From contig JBBFLF010000001.1 of NCBI GenBank assembly GCA_037481655.1, positions 191,052-255,051 on the forward strand: DNA of 64,000 nt, written 5' to 3'. Below the pieces are notes generated by a model, which saw nothing but the letters and a program-made list of their open reading frames with translations, was not told the origin of the DNA and did not search any database. The translations under genes were made by a program, and so were the position numbers. This stretch comes from Desulfobaccales bacterium. GTDB taxonomy: Bacteria > Desulfobacterota > Desulfobaccia > Desulfobaccales > 0-14-0-80-60-11. Below, piece after piece: positions 27,899 through 39,739 of the stretch; position 1 is the stretch's first letter; each line of letters begins with the position of its first letter.

Positions 27899-29274
<1,376 letters not shown>

Positions 29275-29709
29275 TCACATCTTTTCCACGAAGACCTCCA
29301 GGCCGTCATTGTCCACCAACAGCAAGAGATGATTGAGGCTGAGGCGGAACTGGGGGCTTCCCAGGTCCAGGAGCCGGGATTGGGGCGGCTGCAGATGAAA
29401 GGCGGCGGAGGCCCCTTCCCGGGCCAAAAAAGAGCCGGCCACCATATTGGCCCCTTCCTGGACCACATCCTGGATCTGCTCCGGGGTGGGCTCCGAGGTG
29501 GAGAGCCCCAGGAAATTGACGGCCATTTTCCGGGCCAGGGCCTCAGGCACGGTGAGGCCGATGCAGAAGGTGCGGGGACCACGCACGGGGACCCAGGCCC
29601 GCACCCCTGGGCCCTGGAAGACCGGCCGCTCCAGCAGCGGGGGTTCCGGAAAGAGGAAGAACATGCCCTCAAAGACTTCAAAAGTCGCAGCCTTCAAGTT
29701 CTCCAGCAT
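29275..29709 (-). CDS. CheX-like chemotaxis phosphatase
   Basis: A 144-residue protein of the CheC/CheX family, which dephosphorylates CheY. The active helix signature of CheX (E-x2-N) is present as QDVVQEGANMVAGSF, with Glu and Asn in the expected spacing. The segment FCIGLTVPEALARKMAVNFLG is also typical. The start at 29709 overlaps the preceding receiver gene by 32 bp; an internal ATG (MFFLF) is possible but would remove the first helix. The overlap with a CheY-like gene fits the role of this phosphatase in resetting that receiver. Confidence 0.75.
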   Translation of the reverse strand: MLENLKAATFEVFEGMFFLFPEPPLLERPVFQGPGVRAWVPVRGPRTFCIGLTVPEALARKMAVNFLGLSTSEPTPEQIQDVVQEGANMVAGSFLAREGASAAFHLQPPQSRLLDLGSPQFRLSLNHLLLLVDNDGLEVFVEKM

Positions 29710-30097
29710 CGGGTGTGCCCACCTCCCCCAAGAGGGTGCTCAGCTGCCGCCGGATGGTTTCCGGCCGAAAGGGCTTCTTGATGTAGCCCGCCACGCCCAG
29801 GCGGCGGAAGGGGGCCAGGACCTCCTCCCGGGATTCGGTGCTCACCACCACCACGGGGATGGACTGCCACAGGGGGTGCCCCTTCAGGGCAGTGATGAAG
29901 GCGGTGCCGTCCATCTCCGGCATATGGATGTCGGAGAGCACCAGATCCACCCAGTGCTGCTCCAGGATGGCCAGGCCTTCCCGGCCGTTGGCCCCTTCAA
30001 AACACTGACCCAGGTTGAAGCCCGAGATGGCCAGGATTTTCCGGATCAGAGCCCGCATGGTGGCGGAATCATCCACGATGAGCACGTTGTACGGCAT
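29678..30097 (-). CDS. Single-domain response regulator (CheY-like)
   Basis: A 139-residue receiver domain: [18 protein letters not shown] with the acidic pair, the phospho-acceptor Asp in LVLSDIHMPEMDGTAF, Thr/Ser at VVSTES and the lysine in GYIKKPFRPET. It has a short C-terminal tail and no output domain. The start ATG at 30095-30097 overlaps the HDOD gene by 29 bp. It is one of two stand-alone receivers in the cluster; the other, at 39188, is the more typical CheY. This one may serve as a phosphate sink or feed the HDOD protein. Confidence 0.9.
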   Translation of the reverse strand: MPYNVLIVDDSATMRALIRKILAISGFNLGQCFEGANGREGLAILEQHWVDLVLSDIHMPEMDGTAFITALKGHPLWQSIPVVVVSTESREEVLAPFRRLGVAGYIKKPFRPETIRRQLSTLLGEVGTPDAGELEGCDF

Positions 30098-30953
30098 GGC
30101 CGTCTCCCACCAGTCCAAAGAAGACTTTGGCTTCCCCCCAGGAGCTGCCGAAATGCATGAGCAGGCGCTCCAGGTCCCGCTCCCGGAGGTTGAAGTGCTG
30201 CAACACTTGGGGGAAGCCATCATAGGCCAGGCCTTCGTTTCCCAGGTCCTGGCCGAACATCATCACCAAAAGATCCGCCAGATAGACGAGGAGCACCATA
30301 TCATCGGCAAAGGCCTCGGGCCGGTCCAGGTGATGGTAGTGGATCACCAGCCGCAGGCGGTCGGGGAAGTCCCAGATGCGGGCCATCTCGCCCCCCACCT
30401 CGGCGTGGCTGATTCCCAGCACCAGTTTCTCCGCCTGCTGGAAGGGGATCCCCCGTTTCTCCACCACCGCCATGATCTGGGCGAATTTCTGTTCCACGTA
30501 GAGGCTGAGGACGATCTTGCCGATGTCATGGAGCAATCCGGCGGTGAAGGCGGTAGTGCGCTCGGTGGCGGCCAGTTCCCGGGCCAAGAGGTCCGCCATC
30601 AGGGCACAACTGATGGAATGACGCCAAAGGCCGTGATTCTCCTGGAAGTAGCCGGGAGTGGCATTGGCAAAGAGCCGGGTGGCGCCGCTGGCAATGATGA
30701 TCTTCAAGAGCTCCTGGGTCCCCAGAAGCAGGAGGGCCTGATGCAGGGAGTGAATCTCCCGCCGCAACCCGAAATAGGCGGAGTTGCTGATGCGCAGGAT
30801 GTTGGCGGTGATGCCCGGGTCGAACTTGACCACCTCCACCAGCTCCTCAATGCTGATCTCGGGTTGGTTCACCAGGGTCAAGGCCCGTTGCGCCACCACC
30901 GGGAAGGGGGGGAGATGCTTCAGCGACCGCAGGATCTGAGGAATGAGACTCAT
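30069..30953 (-). CDS. HDOD domain signalling protein
   Basis: A 294-residue protein made of one HDOD domain. It starts MSLIPQILRSLKHLPPFPVVAQRAL and has the HDOD core KFDPGITANILRISNSAYFG, then LWRHSISCALMADLLAREL and FTAGLLHDIGKIVLSLYV, which retain an His and an HD pair. HDOD proteins are regulatory and usually lack nucleotide hydrolysis; whether the retained HD residues bind metal is open. It lies in the middle of the chemotaxis operon between cheD and the small receiver, overlapping the latter. I chose the ATG at 30951-30953 over an upstream start at 31004 because the family begins here. Confidence 0.88.
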   Translation of the reverse strand: MSLIPQILRSLKHLPPFPVVAQRALTLVNQPEISIEELVEVVKFDPGITANILRISNSAYFGLRREIHSLHQALLLLGTQELLKIIIASGATRLFANATPGYFQENHGLWRHSISCALMADLLARELAATERTTAFTAGLLHDIGKIVLSLYVEQKFAQIMAVVEKRGIPFQQAEKLVLGISHAEVGGEMARIWDFPDRLRLVIHYHHLDRPEAFADDMVLLVYLADLLVMMFGQDLGNEGLAYDGFPQVLQHFNLRERDLERLLMHFGSSWGEAKVFFGLVGDGHAVQRAHRG

Positions 30954-30964
30954 GGCCCGCTCAC

Positions 30965-31444
30965 CTATAATTCCACAAGGTTCTGCCCGATGACTTTGAC
31001 CCACACCCGGCCGGTGGCCAGGTCCAGAAACAGGGTCCGGGCCTTGGCGCCCCCCACCTCTTCGTTATCCACCAGCACATTGTTGCGGAGAAAGATGCGG
31101 CGCAGGGCGGCGTAGTTGCGGCGGCCGATCTGGAAGTGCTCCTCGCCCCCCAGAACCTGGCCGCCGCCGGCCACTTTCACCGCCAGCCGGTGCTTTTGGG
31201 CCCCCAGGGCGTAGCACTCCCGAAACAGCCGGGGAATACCCGTATCGGCAAACATGAAGGGGTTTTCCGCCGCCCGGGCCGGGTCCAGGGAGGAATCCGG
31301 CAGCATGTAGTGCAACAGGCCTCCCACCCGGGCCTGGGGGTCATAGACGGCCACGCCGATGCAGGACCCCAGGGCGTGGGTCACCAGCAGGTGATTGGCC
31401 TGGTTGCTCACCTTCATATCCGCCACCCCCACCACCACGGTCAC
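30965..31444 (-). CDS. cheD: Chemoreceptor glutamine deamidase CheD
   Basis: Deamidates receptor glutamines and, in other species, partners with CheC/CheX-type phosphatases. The 159-residue product has the catalytic cysteine and its context in VTHALGSCIGVAVYDP, the histidine in GGLLHYMLPDSS, and the conserved KVAGGGQVL and IGRRNYAALRR segments. The GTG at 31442-31444 gives VTVVVGVADMKVSN, the normal family start; a frame continuing to 31510 overlaps cheR and is not needed. It lies 11 bp after the cheR stop. Confidence 0.93.
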   Translation of the reverse strand: MTVVVGVADMKVSNQANHLLVTHALGSCIGVAVYDPQARVGGLLHYMLPDSSLDPARAAENPFMFADTGIPRLFRECYALGAQKHRLAVKVAGGGQVLGGEEHFQIGRRNYAALRRIFLRNNVLVDNEEVGGAKARTLFLDLATGRVWVKVIGQNLVEL

Positions 31445-31455
31445 CCGACCGGGGC

Positions 31456-32337
31456 CTATTTCCGATAGATCGTGGGGCGGATGTACGCGAAGCGATGGCT
31501 GAGATTGCACAGGCTCTCCGAGTGTCCGATGAAGAGGTAGCCTCCGGGGGTGAGGCCCTCGTAGAATTTGCGAATCACCTCTGCCTGGGTCTCTTTGTCA
31601 AAATAGATCATCACATTCCGGCAGAAGATGACGTCCACCCCGCCGGTGAAGGGCAGGGGGTCCGTCAGGTTGTGGCGGAAGAAGCGCACCATCTCCTTGA
31701 GCCGGGGCTTCACCTGCACGTAGCCCTCCCAGCGGCCCACGCCCTTGAGGAAATGGCGCCGCCGCCACTCCGGCGGCAAGGGCGTGAGGCGGCTTAAGGC
31801 ATAGATGCCTCGCTGGGCCGTGGCCAGCACCTGGGTGTTGAGGTCCGAGGCCCACACCGTACACCGCCTGGCCTCGGTCTCCGGCAGGGCCTCCCACAGC
31901 ACCATGGCCAGGGTGTAGGGTTCCTCGCCGCTGGAGCAGCCGGCGCTCCAGAACCGGAGGCCCTCCCTCGTCCGGCCCTCCCGGCGCCAGGCGGGCAAAA
32001 GCTCCCGCAGGAGAAACTCGAAGTGGGCCGACTCCCGCCAGAAGGCCGTCTGGTTAGTGGAGATGGCGTCCAACAGCCGGGTGAGTTCGGCGCCGCTGCG
32101 GTCATGGATCACCCGCCGGTAATAGTCCTGAAAACTGGCCAGGCCCTCCTCCCGAAGGATCTTCCCCAGCCGCGCCTGCACCAGCTCCCGCTTCTGGTCG
32201 CTTAAGTGAATGCCGGCGTGGCGCTGCACCAGCTCCCGGATGAGGGCGAATTCCCGGGCGGAAAGGGGAGGCAGCGCCGCCGGGGCCACGACCTCCGGGC
32301 GGGCCGGGAGGGAAGCTCCCTGGATCTGCGGCTGCAT
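31456..32337 (-). CDS. cheR: Chemotaxis protein methyltransferase CheR
   Basis: Transfers methyl groups from S-adenosylmethionine to glutamates of chemoreceptors. The 293-residue product has the N-terminal helical domain (EFALIRELVQRHAGIHLSDQ), followed by the SAM-binding region LRFWSAGCSSGEEPYTLAM and VWASDLNTQVLATAQRGIY. The tail has VDVIFCRNVMIYFDKETQ and LFIGHSESLCN, both standard. It has an AGGAAGGA ribosome site before the ATG at 32335-32337. In the same cluster, the receptor at 33076 ends with a pentapeptide of the type bound by CheR. Confidence 0.96.
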   Translation of the reverse strand: MQPQIQGASLPARPEVVAPAALPPLSAREFALIRELVQRHAGIHLSDQKRELVQARLGKILREEGLASFQDYYRRVIHDRSGAELTRLLDAISTNQTAFWRESAHFEFLLRELLPAWRREGRTREGLRFWSAGCSSGEEPYTLAMVLWEALPETEARRCTVWASDLNTQVLATAQRGIYALSRLTPLPPEWRRRHFLKGVGRWEGYVQVKPRLKEMVRFFRHNLTDPLPFTGGVDVIFCRNVMIYFDKETQAEVIRKFYEGLTPGGYLFIGHSESLCNLSHRFAYIRPTIYRK

Positions 32338-32503
32338 GACGTGTTCCTTCCTCTCCGTCCTCCTCCCTGAGTGCACGCTGGGTGAGGCTCCCGGGGGCCT
32401 CCTGCCCCCACCTGTCCCTCTGTATCCTGCCGGACCCGGTTCCCGTTGCTCTTACGCCATCTGCTCCCCGGCCTTTCCCTGGCCCGCCGAGGTGGTCTCC
32501 GCC

Positions 32504-33013
32504 TCAGCCTCCCAGGGTCTCCAGTCCCAAAAGTTCTTCGGCGGACAGCACCCGGTCGATGTCCAGCAGGATCTTGATGCTGCCCTTGGTCTTGGCGATG
32601 CCCAGGATATAGGAGTGGTTCAGGTCGTGGCCGAAGGCGGGGGGCGGCTCCAGGTCTTCGGTCCCCACATTGAGGACCTCGGAGACCGCGTCCACCACCA
32701 CCCCCATCTGCATGGGCCCCTGGGCGGTTTTCACGTCCACCACGATGATACAGGTGCGCTCGCCGTAGTCCATGGGGGGCAGGCCGAATTTCAGCCGGAG
32801 ATCAATGACCGGTATTACCCGCCCCCTAAGATTAATGACCCCCTTGACGTAGGCCGGGGTCTGGGGGATGGGGGTGATGTCCAGCATGCCGATGATTTCC
32901 CGCACCTTCAGGATCTCCAGGCCGAAGTCCTCCCCGGCCAGGACGAAGGTGAGGTATTTGCCCTCCCGGGCCCTCAGCCCCGTCTGCTCCACAGAACGCG
33001 CCGCTTCTCCCAT
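32504..33013 (-). CDS. cheW: Chemotaxis coupling protein CheW
   Basis: Scaffold protein that joins chemoreceptors to CheA. The 169-residue sequence has LTFVLAGEDFGLEILKVREI, PAYVKGVINLRGRVIPVIDLRLKF and the second subdomain MQMGVVVDAVSEVLNV with the KGSIKILLDIDRVL end. The ribosome site GAGGAGAGG precedes the ATG. It is encoded between the receptors and cheR, and is the only stand-alone CheW in the cluster. Confidence 0.96.
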   Translation of the reverse strand: MGEAARSVEQTGLRAREGKYLTFVLAGEDFGLEILKVREIIGMLDITPIPQTPAYVKGVINLRGRVIPVIDLRLKFGLPPMDYGERTCIIVVDVKTAQGPMQMGVVVDAVSEVLNVGTEDLEPPPAFGHDLNHSYILGIAKTKGSIKILLDIDRVLSAEELLGLETLGG

Positions 33014-33075
33014 GTGCCTCTCCTCGGGGGCCCGGCGCCCCCCCTTTCATCTATCGGCGCAGCGCGCCGGTTTCG

Positions 33076-35049
33076 TTAGAATTCCTGGAATTCTTCTTCA
33101 AAGGGGATGAGCTGCTCCGGCTTCACCGGCTGGGCCGGCAGCTTGGGCTTCTCGGCGATGGCCGGCCGCTTCAGGGCGGGGCGTTTCAGCCAGCCTCCCC
33201 GGTCCAGGGCCGCCGGTTTGAGGCCGTTTCTGCCGCCGCCCACCAGGCGGGTGAGTTCCGCCACCACGCTTTTCATCTGTTCGGACTGGGCGTTCAGCTC
33301 CTCCGCGGCGCTGGCGCTCTCCTCGGCGTTGGCGGCCACCTGCTGGGTGACGCTGTTCATCTCGGTAACCGCCTTGTTGATCTGCTCCACCCCTTGGGCC
33401 TGCTCGCTGGAAGCCGCGGCGATCTCCGCCACCAGATCCTTCATCTTGCCGGAGGCGGCCGTCACCTCGTCGAAGGCGCTGGCAGTCTGCTGCATGAGGC
33501 CGGTGCTCTCCTGGATGCGGGTCACCGAGCCCTCGATGAGGTCGGCGGTGTTTTTGGCCGCCTCCGCCGCCCGCATGGCCAGGGCCCTGACTTCATCGGC
33601 CACCACCGCAAAGCCGGCCCCCGCCTCCCCGGCCCGGGCCGCCTCCACCGCGGCGTTCAGGGCCAGAAGATTGGTCTGGAAGGCGATCTCGTCGATGGTC
33701 TTGATGATCCGGGCCGTCTCCTCGCTGGCCCGGGAGACCTCCTGCATGGCGTGCCTGAGCCCCTGCATGGCCTGGCCGGCCTGCTCCACCACCCGGGCGG
33801 ATTCCGCCATCAGGGTGTTGGCCTGGGTGGCGTTGTCGGCGTTCTGCCGAGTCATGGAGGCCATCTGCTCCAGGGAGGCGGAGGTCTCCTGGAGGGAGGC
33901 GGCCTGCTCGCTGGCCCCCTGGGCCAGGGACTGGCTGGCCCCGGCCACCTGGGCCGCGGCCGCGGCCACTTGCTCGGAGCCTTCCTTCAAGGCGCTCACC
34001 ACCCGGGTAAGGGTGAGGGTGAGGTTGCGGGTGAGGAAGAAGCCCAGAAGCCCCGCCAGGAGCAGTCCCGCCAGCATGGCGGCGAAACTGAGGCCCTTCA
34101 GGGAGGCGGCCTCGCCCATGGCCTGCTGCACTTCCTGGGCCACATTGCGGGTGCCCGCCTCCACCAGCTTGTCCAATATCTGCATTGCGGCGCGCTGTTT
34201 CTCCAGGGCCGGGCCCAGAAGCTGTTCCTCCAATTGCCGGAAGGTGTCATTGGCCTCCTGGGCGATCTTCAGCATGGCCTCGAAGTGGCCGAAGGTGTCC
34301 TGCATGGCTGGCACCATCTGGCGCTCGTAGACCGCCTGGGCCTCAGCGCGCTGGCCCGCCGCCATGAGCTCCTTGATGCGCTTCACTGCGGCGTGAAACT
34401 GCCGGTGCGGCTCGGCGATGGCAGCCAGCTCCTGCTTCAGGTCGGCATTGTCGGTCTTGAAGGTGGGCAGCCATTTCCCCAGGCTGCAGGCGGTGTGGTC
34501 CTCCCCGCCGGTAAAGGTGCCCTGCTGGGTGAAGAGGAGCTGCAAGACCCTCTGCACCCAGAGATAGTGCCCTTTGGCGAAGCTCTCGATCTGCCGGATC
34601 AGTTCATCGGGATCGACAATGCCGAGCTGATCCACCTTGCGGGCCAGCTCCAGGGCTTTGGTATTCTCCTGGCGCCAGGCCTCCCAGGCCGGGGCCAGCT
34701 GACGCCAGAGCTCCGCCTCCTCCGGGGTCTTGGGGAGGCCGTCATAGGTCTTCCAGGCCTTGCCGTAGCGCTCCCGGCTGGCCTCGACGTTGCGGTACTG
34801 GCGCTGGCGCGTTTCCGTCGCCAGGCCGGGAAGGGCCAGGGTGCGCAGCGACCCCCGGATGCTTTCCGCTTCACCCCGTAGAATCAGGAGAGTTTCCGCT
34901 TTGGGAAGAGAGACTTCGCCCAGGGCCTTGACCTGCTCAGCGCCCCGGCCGGCGGTGTAATAGCCCACCCCGCCCACCACCAGGACCAGGAGCCCCATCA
35001 CCCCGAAGGCCAGATAGAGTTTGGTGCCGAGCTTCAGGTTTTTCCACAT
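33076..35049 (-). CDS. Methyl-accepting chemotaxis protein with CZB zinc-binding domain and CheR/CheB tether
   Basis: A 657-residue chemoreceptor. Membrane helix 1 is [21 protein letters not shown]; helix 2, [20 protein letters not shown], lies near residue 340. The sensor region between them has a chemoreceptor zinc-binding (CZB) pattern: [14 protein letters not shown] and later [13 protein letters not shown]. The cytoplasmic hairpin tip is [20 protein letters not shown] with [13 protein letters not shown]. After the signalling domain a Pro/Lys-rich tail of about 50 residues ends EEFQEF, whose last five residues fit the x-aromatic-x-x-aromatic pentapeptide that binds CheR or CheB. The ligand is unknown; CZB domains have been linked to zinc and hypochlorite sensing. 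Confidence 0.92.
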
Positions 35050-35260
35050 AAGTCCGTTCCCCTTTGAGGTTTGGAAAGGTTTTTGCGCGACGCCACTCGC
35101 CGCAATCAATGCCGCCCCCGCCGCCGTCCGCGGCGGGAGGTTAGGCCGGGGAGGGCCGCCTCTGTTTCCGATCGGCCGCCCCTGGCTCAGGGGAGAGCTC
35201 CACGGCTAACGCGCCTCACAGCCGTTATCACTTTCCCGCCCAGCGGCCTGGTCTCCGGGC

Positions 35261-36751
35261 TCAGAGCCGGGGGGCGGAATGCTCCACCAGCTCCGCCCCT
35301 TCCAGGCGCATGCGGGCGATGAGGGCCAATTCCTTGACGATGGCCCGGAGCTGCTCGGACTGGGCCGAGAGCTCTTCCGCCGCCGCGGCGCTCTCCTGGG
35401 CGCTGGCCGCGGTCTCCTGGGTCACCCGGTTCATGTCCGCCACCGCCCGGGAGATCTGCTCCACCCCCTGGGCCTGCTCGCCGGAGGCGGCGGCGATCTC
35501 CGCCACCAGGTCCTTCACCTTGCCGGCCCGGCCCGTCACCTGGGAGAAGGCCTCCTGGGTCTGCCCCATGAGCTGGGCCCCCTGCTGCACCTGGCGCACC
35601 GTGCCTTCGATGAGGCCGGCGGTGTTTTTGGCCGCTTCCGCCGCCCGGATGGCCAGGGCCCTAACCTCGTCGGCCACCACCGCAAAGCCGGCCCCCGCCT
35701 CTCCGGCCCGGGCCGCCTCCACCGCGGCGTTCAGGGCCAGGAGATTGGTCTGGAAGGCGATCTCGTCAATGGTCTTGATGATCTTGGCGGTCTGCTGCCC
35801 GGCAGTGGTGACCTCCTGCATGCAGGCGGCCAGCTCCTGGATGGCCCGGTGGGCCTCTTCCACCACCCGGGTGGTCTCTGCCACCAGGGCGTCGGCCTCC
35901 CGGGCGTGCTCGGCATTGCCCCGGGTCATAGCGGCCATCTCCTCCAGGGAGGCGGAGGTCTCCTCCAGGGAGGCGGCCTGGGAGCTGGCGCCCTGGGCCA
36001 GACTCTGGGCCGTCTGAGAGACCTGGGCGGCGCCGCTCTGCACCTCCGCGGAGATCTGGGTGATCCCCTGCATCACCCCCAAAAGCCGTCCTAAACGCCT
36101 AAGGGGCACGATGAGCCAGACCAAAAGCAGCAAGATGACCGGGACGATGATGAGGAGCAGGCGGTTCCGGTGCTGGGCCACTTGCTCGGTTACATCGTTG
36201 ACGTAAATGCCGGTGCCCACAATCCAGCCCCAGGGCTGGAAGGCTTTGACGTACGAGAGCTTGGGGACGATGCGGGTGGCGTCGTCTTTCCACTGCCACA
36301 TGTAGGCCACGGTGCCCTCGCCCTTGGCCCGGCAGACCTCCACCATCTCCAGAAACAGGGCCTTGCCCTTGGGGTCCTTGAAGGAGCTCAGGTCCTTGCC
36401 CTCCAGGTCGGCCCGGAAGGGGTGCATCACCATGCGGGGGGCAAAGTCATTGATCCAGAAGTAGTCCTTGCCCTCGGGGCCGTAGCGCATGCTGCCCAGG
36501 CGTTTCCTGGCCCGAAGCATGGCCTCCTCCCGGCTGAACTCGCCTTTCTGGGTCCGCTCCTCATACTCCCGGAGGAGGCCGAGGGCGGAATCCACCATGT
36601 TCTTGATCTGGACTTCCTTTTCCCTGAAGACCATGTCCCGCATGGCCGGCAGGAGCACAAAAAAGATGAGGCCCAAAAAAGCGCCGATGATGAGCAGAAA
36701 CTGGAGCAGGATCCGCTCCCGCAAGGTGAATTGCAGTCTGAACCGCCTCAT
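35261..36751 (-). CDS. Methyl-accepting chemotaxis protein with single-Cache sensor
   Basis: A 496-residue receptor with membrane helix 1 ([21 protein letters not shown]) and helix 2 ([20 protein letters not shown]). The periplasmic part looks like an sCache_2 domain: [38 protein letters not shown] and [17 protein letters not shown]. The signalling tip is [20 protein letters not shown]. Cache domains of this subtype often bind small carboxylates such as propionate or pyruvate, but the ligand here is not readable. Unlike the neighbouring receptor it has no terminal pentapeptide. A strong AAGGGGG ribosome site precedes the ATG. Confidence 0.93.
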
Positions 36752-36982: not shown

Positions 36983-39166
36983 CTAGCCCGCCAGGGAAAA
37001 GACGCCGCCCAGATCCAAGATCAGGCCCACCCGGCCGTCCCCCAGGATGGTGCCGCCGGCCAGCCCGGGGCGGTTCTGCAAGAGTTGCCCCAGGGATTTG
37101 ATGACCACTTCCTGCTTGCCCAGGATCTCATCCACCAAAAAAGCCCGGCAGTGGCCTTCATGCTCCACCACCAGGATCAGGGCCTCCCAGGGATCGGGGA
37201 CCGGCCCGGTGAGCCCCAGGAGGCGGTGCAGGCGCACCAGGGGCAGAAGCAGCTGGCGGACCCGGATGAGCTCGCCCTTGCCCTCCACGGTGAAGTAGTC
37301 CTCCCGGCTGGGCCTTAAGCTCTCCCTAACCGCCACCGTGGGGAGGATGTAGCGCTCGCTCGCCACCCTGACCACCAGACCGTCGATGATGGCCAAGGTG
37401 AGGGGCAGGCGCAGGGAGAAGCGGGTGCCCTCCCCGGGGCGGGAGTGGATGTCGATCTTGCCCCGAAGGCGCTCCACCGTCTGCTTCACCACGTCCATCC
37501 CCACTCCCCGGCCGGAGACCTCGGTGACCTGGGAGGCGGTGCTGAAACCGGGCTCGAAGATGAGGTGGTCGATCTGGGCGGGGGAAAGCTCGCCTGCCCC
37601 CACCAGGCCCCGCTCCCGGGCCTTGGCCAGGATGGCCGCCCGGTTGAGCCCCCGGCCGTCGTCCTCGATGTCCAGGATGACGCTGCCGCCCTTGTGGTAG
37701 GCCCGGAGCACCAGGCGTCCCTCTGGAGGCTTGCCCTGGGCCTGGCGCTCCTCGGGGGTCTCCAGGCCGTGGTCCACGGCGTTCCTCACCAGGTGCACCA
37801 GGGGGTCGTAGATGGCCTCCACCATGTTGCGGTCGATCTCGGTGTCCTCGCCTTCCAGGTGCAGGCTGACGAGCTTGCCGGTCTTGTGGGCCAGGTCCCG
37901 CACCAGACGGGTCATGCGCCTCAAGGTGGCGCCGATGGGCACCATGCGCAGGGACATGGAGATCTTCTGGAGCTCGGTGGTGATGCGGGCCATCTGGCCC
38001 AGATCCCGGACCAGCTTCTGGTCGGCGGCGGCCAACACCGCCGGGTTTTGCCGCACCTGGCTCTGGACGATGACCAGCTCGCCCATGAGGTCCACCAGGG
38101 TGTCCAGCTTGGCCAGGTCCACCTTGATGGCCGCAGGGGAGGCCGCCTCGGCTTTGACTTCCGAGAGTTGCTGCACCAGGGCCTGGGCCACTTTTTTGGG
38201 GGCCACCTTGCCCTGGTCCACCAGGATCTCCCCCAGGGGCCGGCCGGGCTCCTCCTGCCGCTGGCGTTCCAGGGCGGCCTCAAGCTCCTCAGGTCCCAGG
38301 TCTCCTTCCTGCACCAGAATCTCCCCCAGGCGGGGGGTGGGGGAGGGGGTGTCCGCCAAAGCGGCGATCCGGGCCGCCAGAGACGAGAGGTCAAAGACTT
38401 GCAAAGGCCGGGAGGCGGCCAGCGCTTCACTCAGGTCTGCCAGCATCTCCCGGAGCAGGTCCACCCCGAAGAGGATAGTATCCACCAGCTCCGGGGTCAC
38501 CTTGAGGGTGCCGCTGCGCACCCGGTCCAGCAGGGATTCCAGTTCATGGCCCGCCGCCTGGATCTGGTCCAGGTTGAGGAAGCCGGCCACCCCCTTGATG
38601 GTGTGGAAGGGCCGGAAGATGGCGTTCACCGCCTCCAGGTCGTCGGGGTGCTGCTCCAGGTAGACCAAGCGGGTTTCGATGCCCTCCAGGTGCTCCCCGG
38701 CCTCGGTGAGGAAGTTGGCCACCAGCTCCGGGTCGTCAAAGGCCGGGGCGGGCGCAGGAGTTGCGGAGGCGGTCTCGCCTTCCTCGACCCCAGTGTCCGC
38801 AGCGGGCGGCTCGGTACCCATAACCCCGGCCAGGAGGCGGAGGTAGGCCTGCCAGTCTTCCGGGCAGGCCTGAGGCGAGCGGCCGGCGGCCAGCTGCTGG
38901 AGCAACGCCACGCCCTGGCCCAGGAGCTCCACTGCTTCCAGGGCGGCGGGAATCTCCTGCAGCACCAGGCGCTGGACGACCGTCAGGAGCTGGTCCACCA
39001 CCGTCCCGGCATCCTCCGGGCCTTCTTCGGAGAGCCGGTCTTTGAGACCCTCCAACTCTTCCAGAAAGGCCCCCAGGGCGGGCAGATCGTCCGGGGAGAG
39101 CATGACCGCCTTCAGGGCCAGGCGGTTTAAGACCTCGTTCAGATCCATGCCGGGCTCGTGCGTCAC
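36983..39166 (-). CDS. cheA: Chemotaxis histidine kinase CheA with an inserted MshEN-like domain
   Basis: The central kinase of the cluster, 727 residues. A helical region of about 145 residues comes first, then an Hpt domain with phospho-His188 in FRPFHTIKGVAGFLNL. Between the Hpt and the dimerisation helix there are two tandem 24-residue repeats (residues 279-302 and 310-333) that start RLGEILVQEG and PLGEILVDQG and each end AL..Q. They match the paired motifs of the MshEN/GspE N-terminal domain. The dimerisation domain (KLDTLVDLMGELVIVQSQV), the ATPase (VRNAVDHGLE, DIEDDGRGLN, SGRGVGMDVV) and a C-terminal CheW-like domain follow. A GTG at 39164-39166 is the probable start; an ATG six codons later lacks a ribosome site. 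Confidence 0.95.
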   Translation of the reverse strand: MTHEPGMDLNEVLNRLALKAVMLSPDDLPALGAFLEELEGLKDRLSEEGPEDAGTVVDQLLTVVQRLVLQEIPAALEAVELLGQGVALLQQLAAGRSPQACPEDWQAYLRLLAGVMGTEPPAADTGVEEGETASATPAPAPAFDDPELVANFLTEAGEHLEGIETRLVYLEQHPDDLEAVNAIFRPFHTIKGVAGFLNLDQIQAAGHELESLLDRVRSGTLKVTPELVDTILFGVDLLREMLADLSEALAASRPLQVFDLSSLAARIAALADTPSPTPRLGEILVQEGDLGPEELEAALERQRQEEPGRPLGEILVDQGKVAPKKVAQALVQQLSEVKAEAASPAAIKVDLAKLDTLVDLMGELVIVQSQVRQNPAVLAAADQKLVRDLGQMARITTELQKISMSLRMVPIGATLRRMTRLVRDLAHKTGKLVSLHLEGEDTEIDRNMVEAIYDPLVHLVRNAVDHGLETPEERQAQGKPPEGRLVLRAYHKGGSVILDIEDDGRGLNRAAILAKARERGLVGAGELSPAQIDHLIFEPGFSTASQVTEVSGRGVGMDVVKQTVERLRGKIDIHSRPGEGTRFSLRLPLTLAIIDGLVVRVASERYILPTVAVRESLRPSREDYFTVEGKGELIRVRQLLLPLVRLHRLLGLTGPVPDPWEALILVVEHEGHCRAFLVDEILGKQEVVIKSLGQLLQNRPGLAGGTILGDGRVGLILDLGGVFSLAG

Positions 39167-39187: not shown

Positions 39188-39589
39188 TTACGCTGCGGCC
39201 AGTTTGCGGAAGATGGCTTCGATCTTTTCCTGCAGGACCTCGGCGGTGAAGGGTTTGACCACATAATTGTTGACTCCCGCCTTCACCGCCTCCAGGACGT
39301 TTTCCTTGAGGCCCTCGGCGGTGACCATGAGCACCGGCACCTGGGCGGTGGCCGGATTTTTGCGGATGTGTTGCAAAAGCTCCAGGCCGGTCATGTTGGG
39401 CATGTTCCAGTCCGTGACCACGAGACCGACCTTTTCGGTCTTGAGGATGTGCAGGGCGGCGGCGCCGTCCTCCGCCTCCACGATGTCCTCAAAGCCGATC
39501 TGCTTGAGGATGTTGCGCACGATCTTGCGCATGGTGGCGAAGTCATCCGCCACCAGCACCTTGATGGAGAAATCAATGCATGAGCTCAT
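39188..39589 (-). CDS. cheY: Chemotaxis response regulator CheY
   Basis: A 133-residue receiver domain: VLVADDFATMRKIVRNILKQIGF, the phospho-acceptor Asp in LVVTDWNMPNMTGLELL, MVTAEGLKENV and NNYVVKPFTAEVL. The DFATMRKIVRN and WNMPNMTG patterns are those of true CheY proteins. The ATG at 39587-39589 is 7 bases from AGGAGG; a GTG two codons upstream is too close. It is the first gene of the chemotaxis operon, 21 bp before cheA. In the absence of nearby flagellar genes its output could be a flagellar motor elsewhere or type IV pili. Confidence 0.94.
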   Translation of the reverse strand: MSSCIDFSIKVLVADDFATMRKIVRNILKQIGFEDIVEAEDGAAALHILKTEKVGLVVTDWNMPNMTGLELLQHIRKNPATAQVPVLMVTAEGLKENVLEAVKAGVNNYVVKPFTAEVLQEKIEAIFRKLAAA

Positions 39590-39739
39590 CGTCACGCCTC
39601 CTGACCCCTCACGCTCCGGTCTGGTTCCCTTTTCGACCGGCCGCCCGGTTTTCTTTAACCGGAAAGACGCCCGGCGGAGTTTTCGAGAGAGCCCGGCGCC
39701 CTCTTGCTTTTTAGGGGAGGTGTGCTAAGACTGGCAGGC

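Follow-up and report, generated by a model that had tools for sequence, protein, structure and literature searches.

An MshEN-type domain with predicted cyclic di-GMP binding in the P2 position of a CheA kinase from Desulfobacterota

Residues 279-333 of the CheA encoded in the window (the whole 64,000-nucleotide stretch of a Desulfobaccales genome that was analysed) were a genuine MshEN_N domain, which occupied the position of P2, the CheY-docking domain, in E. coli-type CheA. Judged by its sequence and predicted fold, this insert quite probably binds c-di-GMP, and a direct effect on kinase activity is plausible. The cheA ORF was complete and began with a GTG start codon. The gene and its domains were as follows (window positions):

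36983..39166, minus strand: CheA gene, 727 aa; N-terminal helical region, P1 (Hpt), MshEN insert, P3, P4, P5
38807..39145, minus strand: N-terminal helical domain, residues about 8-120; five helices
38426..38728, minus strand: P1 / Hpt, residues 147-247; PF01627, E 5e-17; phosphorylatable His188
38168..38332, minus strand: MshEN_N-type c-di-GMP-binding domain (predicted), residues 279-333; NF053729; four helices in the model
38261..38332, minus strand: c-di-GMP motif I (predicted), residues 279-302; RLGEILVQEGDLGPEELEAALERQ
38240..38260, minus strand: spacer RQEEPGR, 7 residues, residues 303-309
38168..38239, minus strand: c-di-GMP motif II (predicted), residues 310-333; PLGEILVDQGKVAPKKVAQALVQQ
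37952..38131, minus strand: P3 dimerisation domain (H-kinase_dim), residues 346-405; PF02895, E 3e-14
37397..37807, minus strand: P4 ATP-binding kinase domain (HATPase_c), residues 454-590; PF02518, E 3e-19
36995..37381, minus strand: P5 / CheW-like domain, residues 596-724; PF01584, E 2e-24

The two 24-residue repeats lay at residues 279-302 and 310-333, with a gap of 7 and Pro as the first residue of the second repeat, exactly as the first-pass annotation had claimed. Its further claim that they follow the MshEN motif pattern was borne out by a pair of regular-expression matches and by a profile match above cut-off. The motifs were identical to each other at 11 of 24 positions. The contact positions, assigned after Wang et al. 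2016 (PMC5013675) as positions 1, 2, 3, 17, 21, and 24 of each repeat, were R279, L280, G281, L295, L299, and Q302 in motif I and P310, L311, G312, V326, L330, and Q333 in motif II. Leu2, Gly3, the hydrophobic residue 17, Leu21, and Gln24 were present in both motifs; position 17 of motif II was Val, where the consensus has Leu. Motif I had Asp at position 11, where the consensus is hydrophobic, a deviation absent from the first-pass annotation. The key-position regular expression matched CheA at these two segments and nowhere else, and in 200,000 shuffled versions of the protein it gave one match in 5 and two matches in none.

The first-pass annotation had proposed a search with the MshEN/T2SSE_N profile. 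NCBIfam NF053729 (c-di-GMP-binding, MshE-related) matched residues 279-333 over the full model (1-53 of 53), scoring 51.5 bits where the cut-off is 38 (E 6e-14), but Pfam T2SSE_N gave no match to CheA, and DUF4388 remained below its cut-off. T2SSE_N as the sole test would therefore wrongly reject an insert that NF053729 detects. A sequence search of the insert against solved structures returned MshE, PilB, and PilF domains only; a profile of 38 relatives did likewise (PilF, 6e-32; MshE 5HTL, 8e-10).

The full CheA was modelled by AlphaFold2 with 48 relatives, and the insert was also modelled alone. In the full-length model, the insert was predicted to form the four-helix MshEN_N bundle, with helices at 280-286, 292-304, 311-317, and 323-338. 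The mean pLDDT was 86-91 over residues 281-330 and lower in the linkers (67 for 271-280; 51-60 for 331-350); for the insert modelled alone it was 75. Foldseek analysis of the insert model revealed c-di-GMP-bound MshE (5HTL, chain B) as the best match, with an rmsd of 1.0 A over 57 columns (TM 0.63 on the query, E 0.016, probability 1.00, 40% identity; the domain is short). Each of the top six matches was an MshE or Thermus PilF domain whose structure had been determined with c-di-GMP, the model superposed on c-di-GMP-bound MshE and PilF at 0.9-1.7 A, and unrelated folds scored far lower. Of the two refutations that the first-pass annotation had named, a missing profile match did not come about, since NF053729 scored above its cut-off; for the other, contact residues that point away from a common pocket, the superposition on c-di-GMP-bound MshE and the conservation of the contact positions gave an indirect test. 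Within the reach of computation, the reading of the insert as MshEN-like was supported.

The MshEN_N domain of V. cholerae MshE (PDB 5HTL) resembled the CheA insert in its two 24-residue RLG...LxxxLxxQ repeats and its four-helix bundle. However, the CheA insert differed from it in the gap between the repeats (7 versus 5), in having Pro for the second Arg, and in lacking the MshEN_C subdomain; it was also fused internally, whereas MshE carries the domain at the N-terminus of an ATPase. The isolated MshEN_N domain binds c-di-GMP unaided with a KD of 0.35 uM (PMC5013675), so the missing MshEN_C is no obstacle to binding.

Both departures in the repeats had a counterpart elsewhere. The gap of 7 was accepted by NF053729. 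For position 1, where motif I has Arg and motif II has Pro, the extended consensus is Arg/Lys/Leu, and Wang et al. 2016 allow Pro in their relaxed search motif (PMC5013675). Among solved structures, the best sequence match was Thermus thermophilus PilF 303-358, which lies within the GSPII-C domain (in 6F8L) and shows the same order of an RLG-headed repeat, a 7-residue gap, and a PLG-headed repeat. Unlike the CheA insert, GSPII-C includes a third motif as well as a C-terminal subdomain, and it belongs to a pilus ATPase. GSPII-C binds c-di-GMP with an affinity about that of MshEN; its sole deviation from the consensus is the Pro (P335) that opens motif II, and Arg at motif position 1 can be replaced by Lys or Leu with binding kept (PMC11731258). 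Because GSPII-C has three motifs, it is a precedent and no proof that a Pro-headed repeat II works in a pair. By this analogy, the gap of 7 and the Pro in repeat II would not be disqualifying. Spacer length among the CheA relatives was mostly 1 to 13. The motifs stood one residue apart in the CheA clades L114-L120 and L125-L127, and the spacer is therefore far more variable than the usually quoted 5.

Like the classical CheA of E. coli and Thermotoga maritima, this CheA had P1, P3, P4, and P5 with intact catalytic residues; all four core domains matched their Pfam models above cut-off. In the 48 full-length relatives, the P1 columns F187, H188, K191, and G192 and the P4 N-box and G-box columns N462, D465, G504, G506, and G552-G556 were invariant. 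It differed from classical CheA by the MshEN domain in place of P2 and by an additional helical domain before P1. This domain (residues 8-120) had no Pfam match and formed the helices 9-22, 28-48, 51-68, 75-93, and 102-116 in the AlphaFold2 model. It contained no phosphorylatable His and was common to relatives across the phylum; the alignments of the relatives to CheA began at residues 5-15.

No Pfam match to P2 was found in this CheA, and no Pfam P2 model matched any of the 48 full-length relatives, all of which were matched by NF053729. According to the 2023 survey of CheA architectures, P2 is absent from about half of CheAs and HMMER overlooks many P2 domains (PMC10782961), so the failure of Pfam to find P2 is by itself weak evidence of its absence. 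The full-length model supports that absence: the predicted stretch from P1 to P3 consisted of the MshEN domain and one short helix, with no space for P2.

Relatives were drawn from 59 genomes and from GTDB genome contigs that were scanned for them, which gave 88 non-redundant CheAs, 85 of them with both repeats aligned; the set is enriched for intact inserts because the search query included the insert. Across these 85 relatives, the mean information was 2.82 bits at the 12 contact positions and 1.72 bits at the other positions (permutation p 0.0004); core or turn positions of the insert averaged 2.48 bits. Gly3 was kept in 83 of 85 in each repeat; Gln24 was invariant in repeat II (85 of 85) and was kept by 68 of 85 relatives in repeat I. 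G281, G312, and Q333 were the only insert residues invariant across the 48 full-length CheAs. Two relatives (L014 and L024) from the same genus as four intact ones had a decayed insert, and a Syntrophobacteraceae-type group had lost the Gln of motif I; these degenerate inserts show that the domain can be retained where no binding site is obvious. Two of the relatives are in culture, Desulfocarbo indianensis (L054) and Desulfacinum infernum (L077), the latter with a motif I that has no final Gln. The insert of L014 and L024 was a Pro/Ala-rich sequence in which traces of the repeats were still recognisable. Another relative (L109) had four consecutive copies of the MshEN motif between P1 and P3, apparently two predicted c-di-GMP domains.

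Named matches belonged to Desulfobacterota (Desulfobacca, Desulfocarbo, Desulfacinum, Desulforapulum, and many MAGs). In an even sample of 197 genomes of this phylum, a CheA match spanning the insert and P3 was present in about 86 among the matches listed, counted by span and with the motif not part of the criterion. When 40 such loci were read out, two motif copies were found in 35 by regular expression, and Gln ended both copies in 25. In a tree based on P3-P5, nearly all members of the clade of the window's CheA had the insert, and sister CheA clades also had it, with a 1-residue gap. The MshEN-CheA architecture proved to be both common and old within the phylum.

The genes around cheA were arranged as follows, with identities assigned by Pfam over 29678-36751:

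39188..39595, minus strand: CheY-type response regulator, immediately upstream of cheA; PF00072, E 3e-31
27899..36751, minus strand: rest of the che cluster; two chemoreceptors, CheW, CheR, CheD, an HDOD protein, a second receiver protein, and a CheB-like protein
27899..28933, minus strand: the CheB-like protein, assigned by reading of the ORF only

The chemoreceptor at 33076-35109 (minus strand) had a CZB (zinc-binding) match between its four-helix sensor region and its signalling domain. This CheA was the only one in the genome, which also encoded FliM; from this genome context, the kinase is most likely flagellar. The genome contained four GGDEF proteins, each with an intact GG(D/E)EF, four HD-GYP-type matches, and two PilZ proteins above cut-off; no EAL was found in the genome search. 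Given these GGDEF and HD-GYP proteins, c-di-GMP can probably be made and degraded in this bacterium. A scan of the genome with NF053729 located the CheA insert at the same residues. A second MshEN receptor in the genome was rejected: the only other NF053729 match was below cut-off and its repeat was degraded. This match (contig C3:76370-76507; L002, L135) lay at the beginning of an AAA-type ATPase-like ORF of 493 aa.

The reading that we favour, and hold to be reasonably likely, is that the MshEN_N insert in the place of P2 binds one c-di-GMP, changes P1 access or phosphotransfer, and sets the gain of chemotaxis. Flexible linkers would tether the domain between P1 and P3. Each 24-residue repeat would hold one guanine: the bases would stack on the conserved leucines and be hydrogen-bonded to the backbone of Gly281 and Gly312, and Gln302 and Gln333 would lie on the ribose-phosphate of c-di-GMP. 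The ligand may tighten and reorder the bundle, which would alter the reach of P1 to the kinase domain or the transfer of phosphate to CheY, and the c-di-GMP level would thereby control the gain of flagellar chemotaxis. The analysis shows what the domain is, where it lies, its predicted fold, and its conservation, and that the genome encodes enzymes for making and degrading c-di-GMP; ligand binding by this protein, the coupling to the kinase, and the sign that the effect would have are inferred.

The main rival is a purely structural role, in which an MshEN-derived insert no longer needs its ligand and replaces P2 as a spacer or as a docking module (e.g., for CheY or CheB), with the conservation reflecting bundle packing. 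We regard it as somewhat unlikely. It stays the main rival because some relatives carry degenerate copies, and it would agree with an insert placed exactly at the P2 position of a protein in which no P2 was found, as well as with the many conserved positions that are core or turn residues (L6, V7, and G10). However, the ligand contacts were the most conserved positions, including the polar final Gln that repeat II never lost and that packing does not obviously require. Moreover, the decay of the site in L014 and L024 extended to the repeat framework, which suggests that it is the site for which the fold is retained.

An insert that binds c-di-GMP might instead act on location or array assembly (e.g., recruitment to the pole) and leave kinase activity alone, a reading that we consider improbable. 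The flexible linkers on both sides, which leave no rigid path to the kinase core visible, are in its favour, as are other routes by which c-di-GMP acts on chemotaxis, such as the PilZ chemoreceptor Cbp1 described in PMC6454048. Against this role, the domain is directly flanked by P1 and P3. The P1-P3 segment of CheA governs the access of P1 to the kinase domain. A chance or low-complexity resemblance of amphipathic helices to MshEN would fit the failure of Pfam T2SSE_N, but it is hardly credible beside the NF053729 E-value, the absence of both repeats from every shuffle, the fold match, and the phylum-wide conservation; the profile and fold matches rule out a chance repeat.

The MshEN-CheA architecture has been known since Wang et al. 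2016 (PMC5013675), where CheA is named among MshEN-bearing proteins in one clause that points to a supplementary table; the main text of that paper gives no residue-level description, distribution, or experiment for it. The main text of the 2023 survey (PMC10782961) mentions neither c-di-GMP nor T2SS domains. A literature search, which covered main texts outside subscription, found no experiments on MshEN-CheA or on c-di-GMP binding to CheA. The present analysis adds the conservation of each residue, the replacement of P2, the distribution over the phylum, and the range of spacers.

It is an evenly balanced question whether a large part of Desulfobacterota has exchanged P2 of CheA, including the flagellar CheA, for a c-di-GMP receptor with direct input to the kinase. 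In other bacteria, c-di-GMP reaches chemotaxis via PilZ adaptors and receptors. To our knowledge, CheA is usually described as having no sensory domain of its own. If the exchange is true, c-di-GMP feeds the chemotaxis kinase directly, beyond adaptors, receptors, or the motor. If the insert is a working receptor, it would provide a simple way to test by which route c-di-GMP acts on chemotaxis in sulfate reducers and related bacteria, and the kinase itself would read the swimming-versus-settling signal within one protein.
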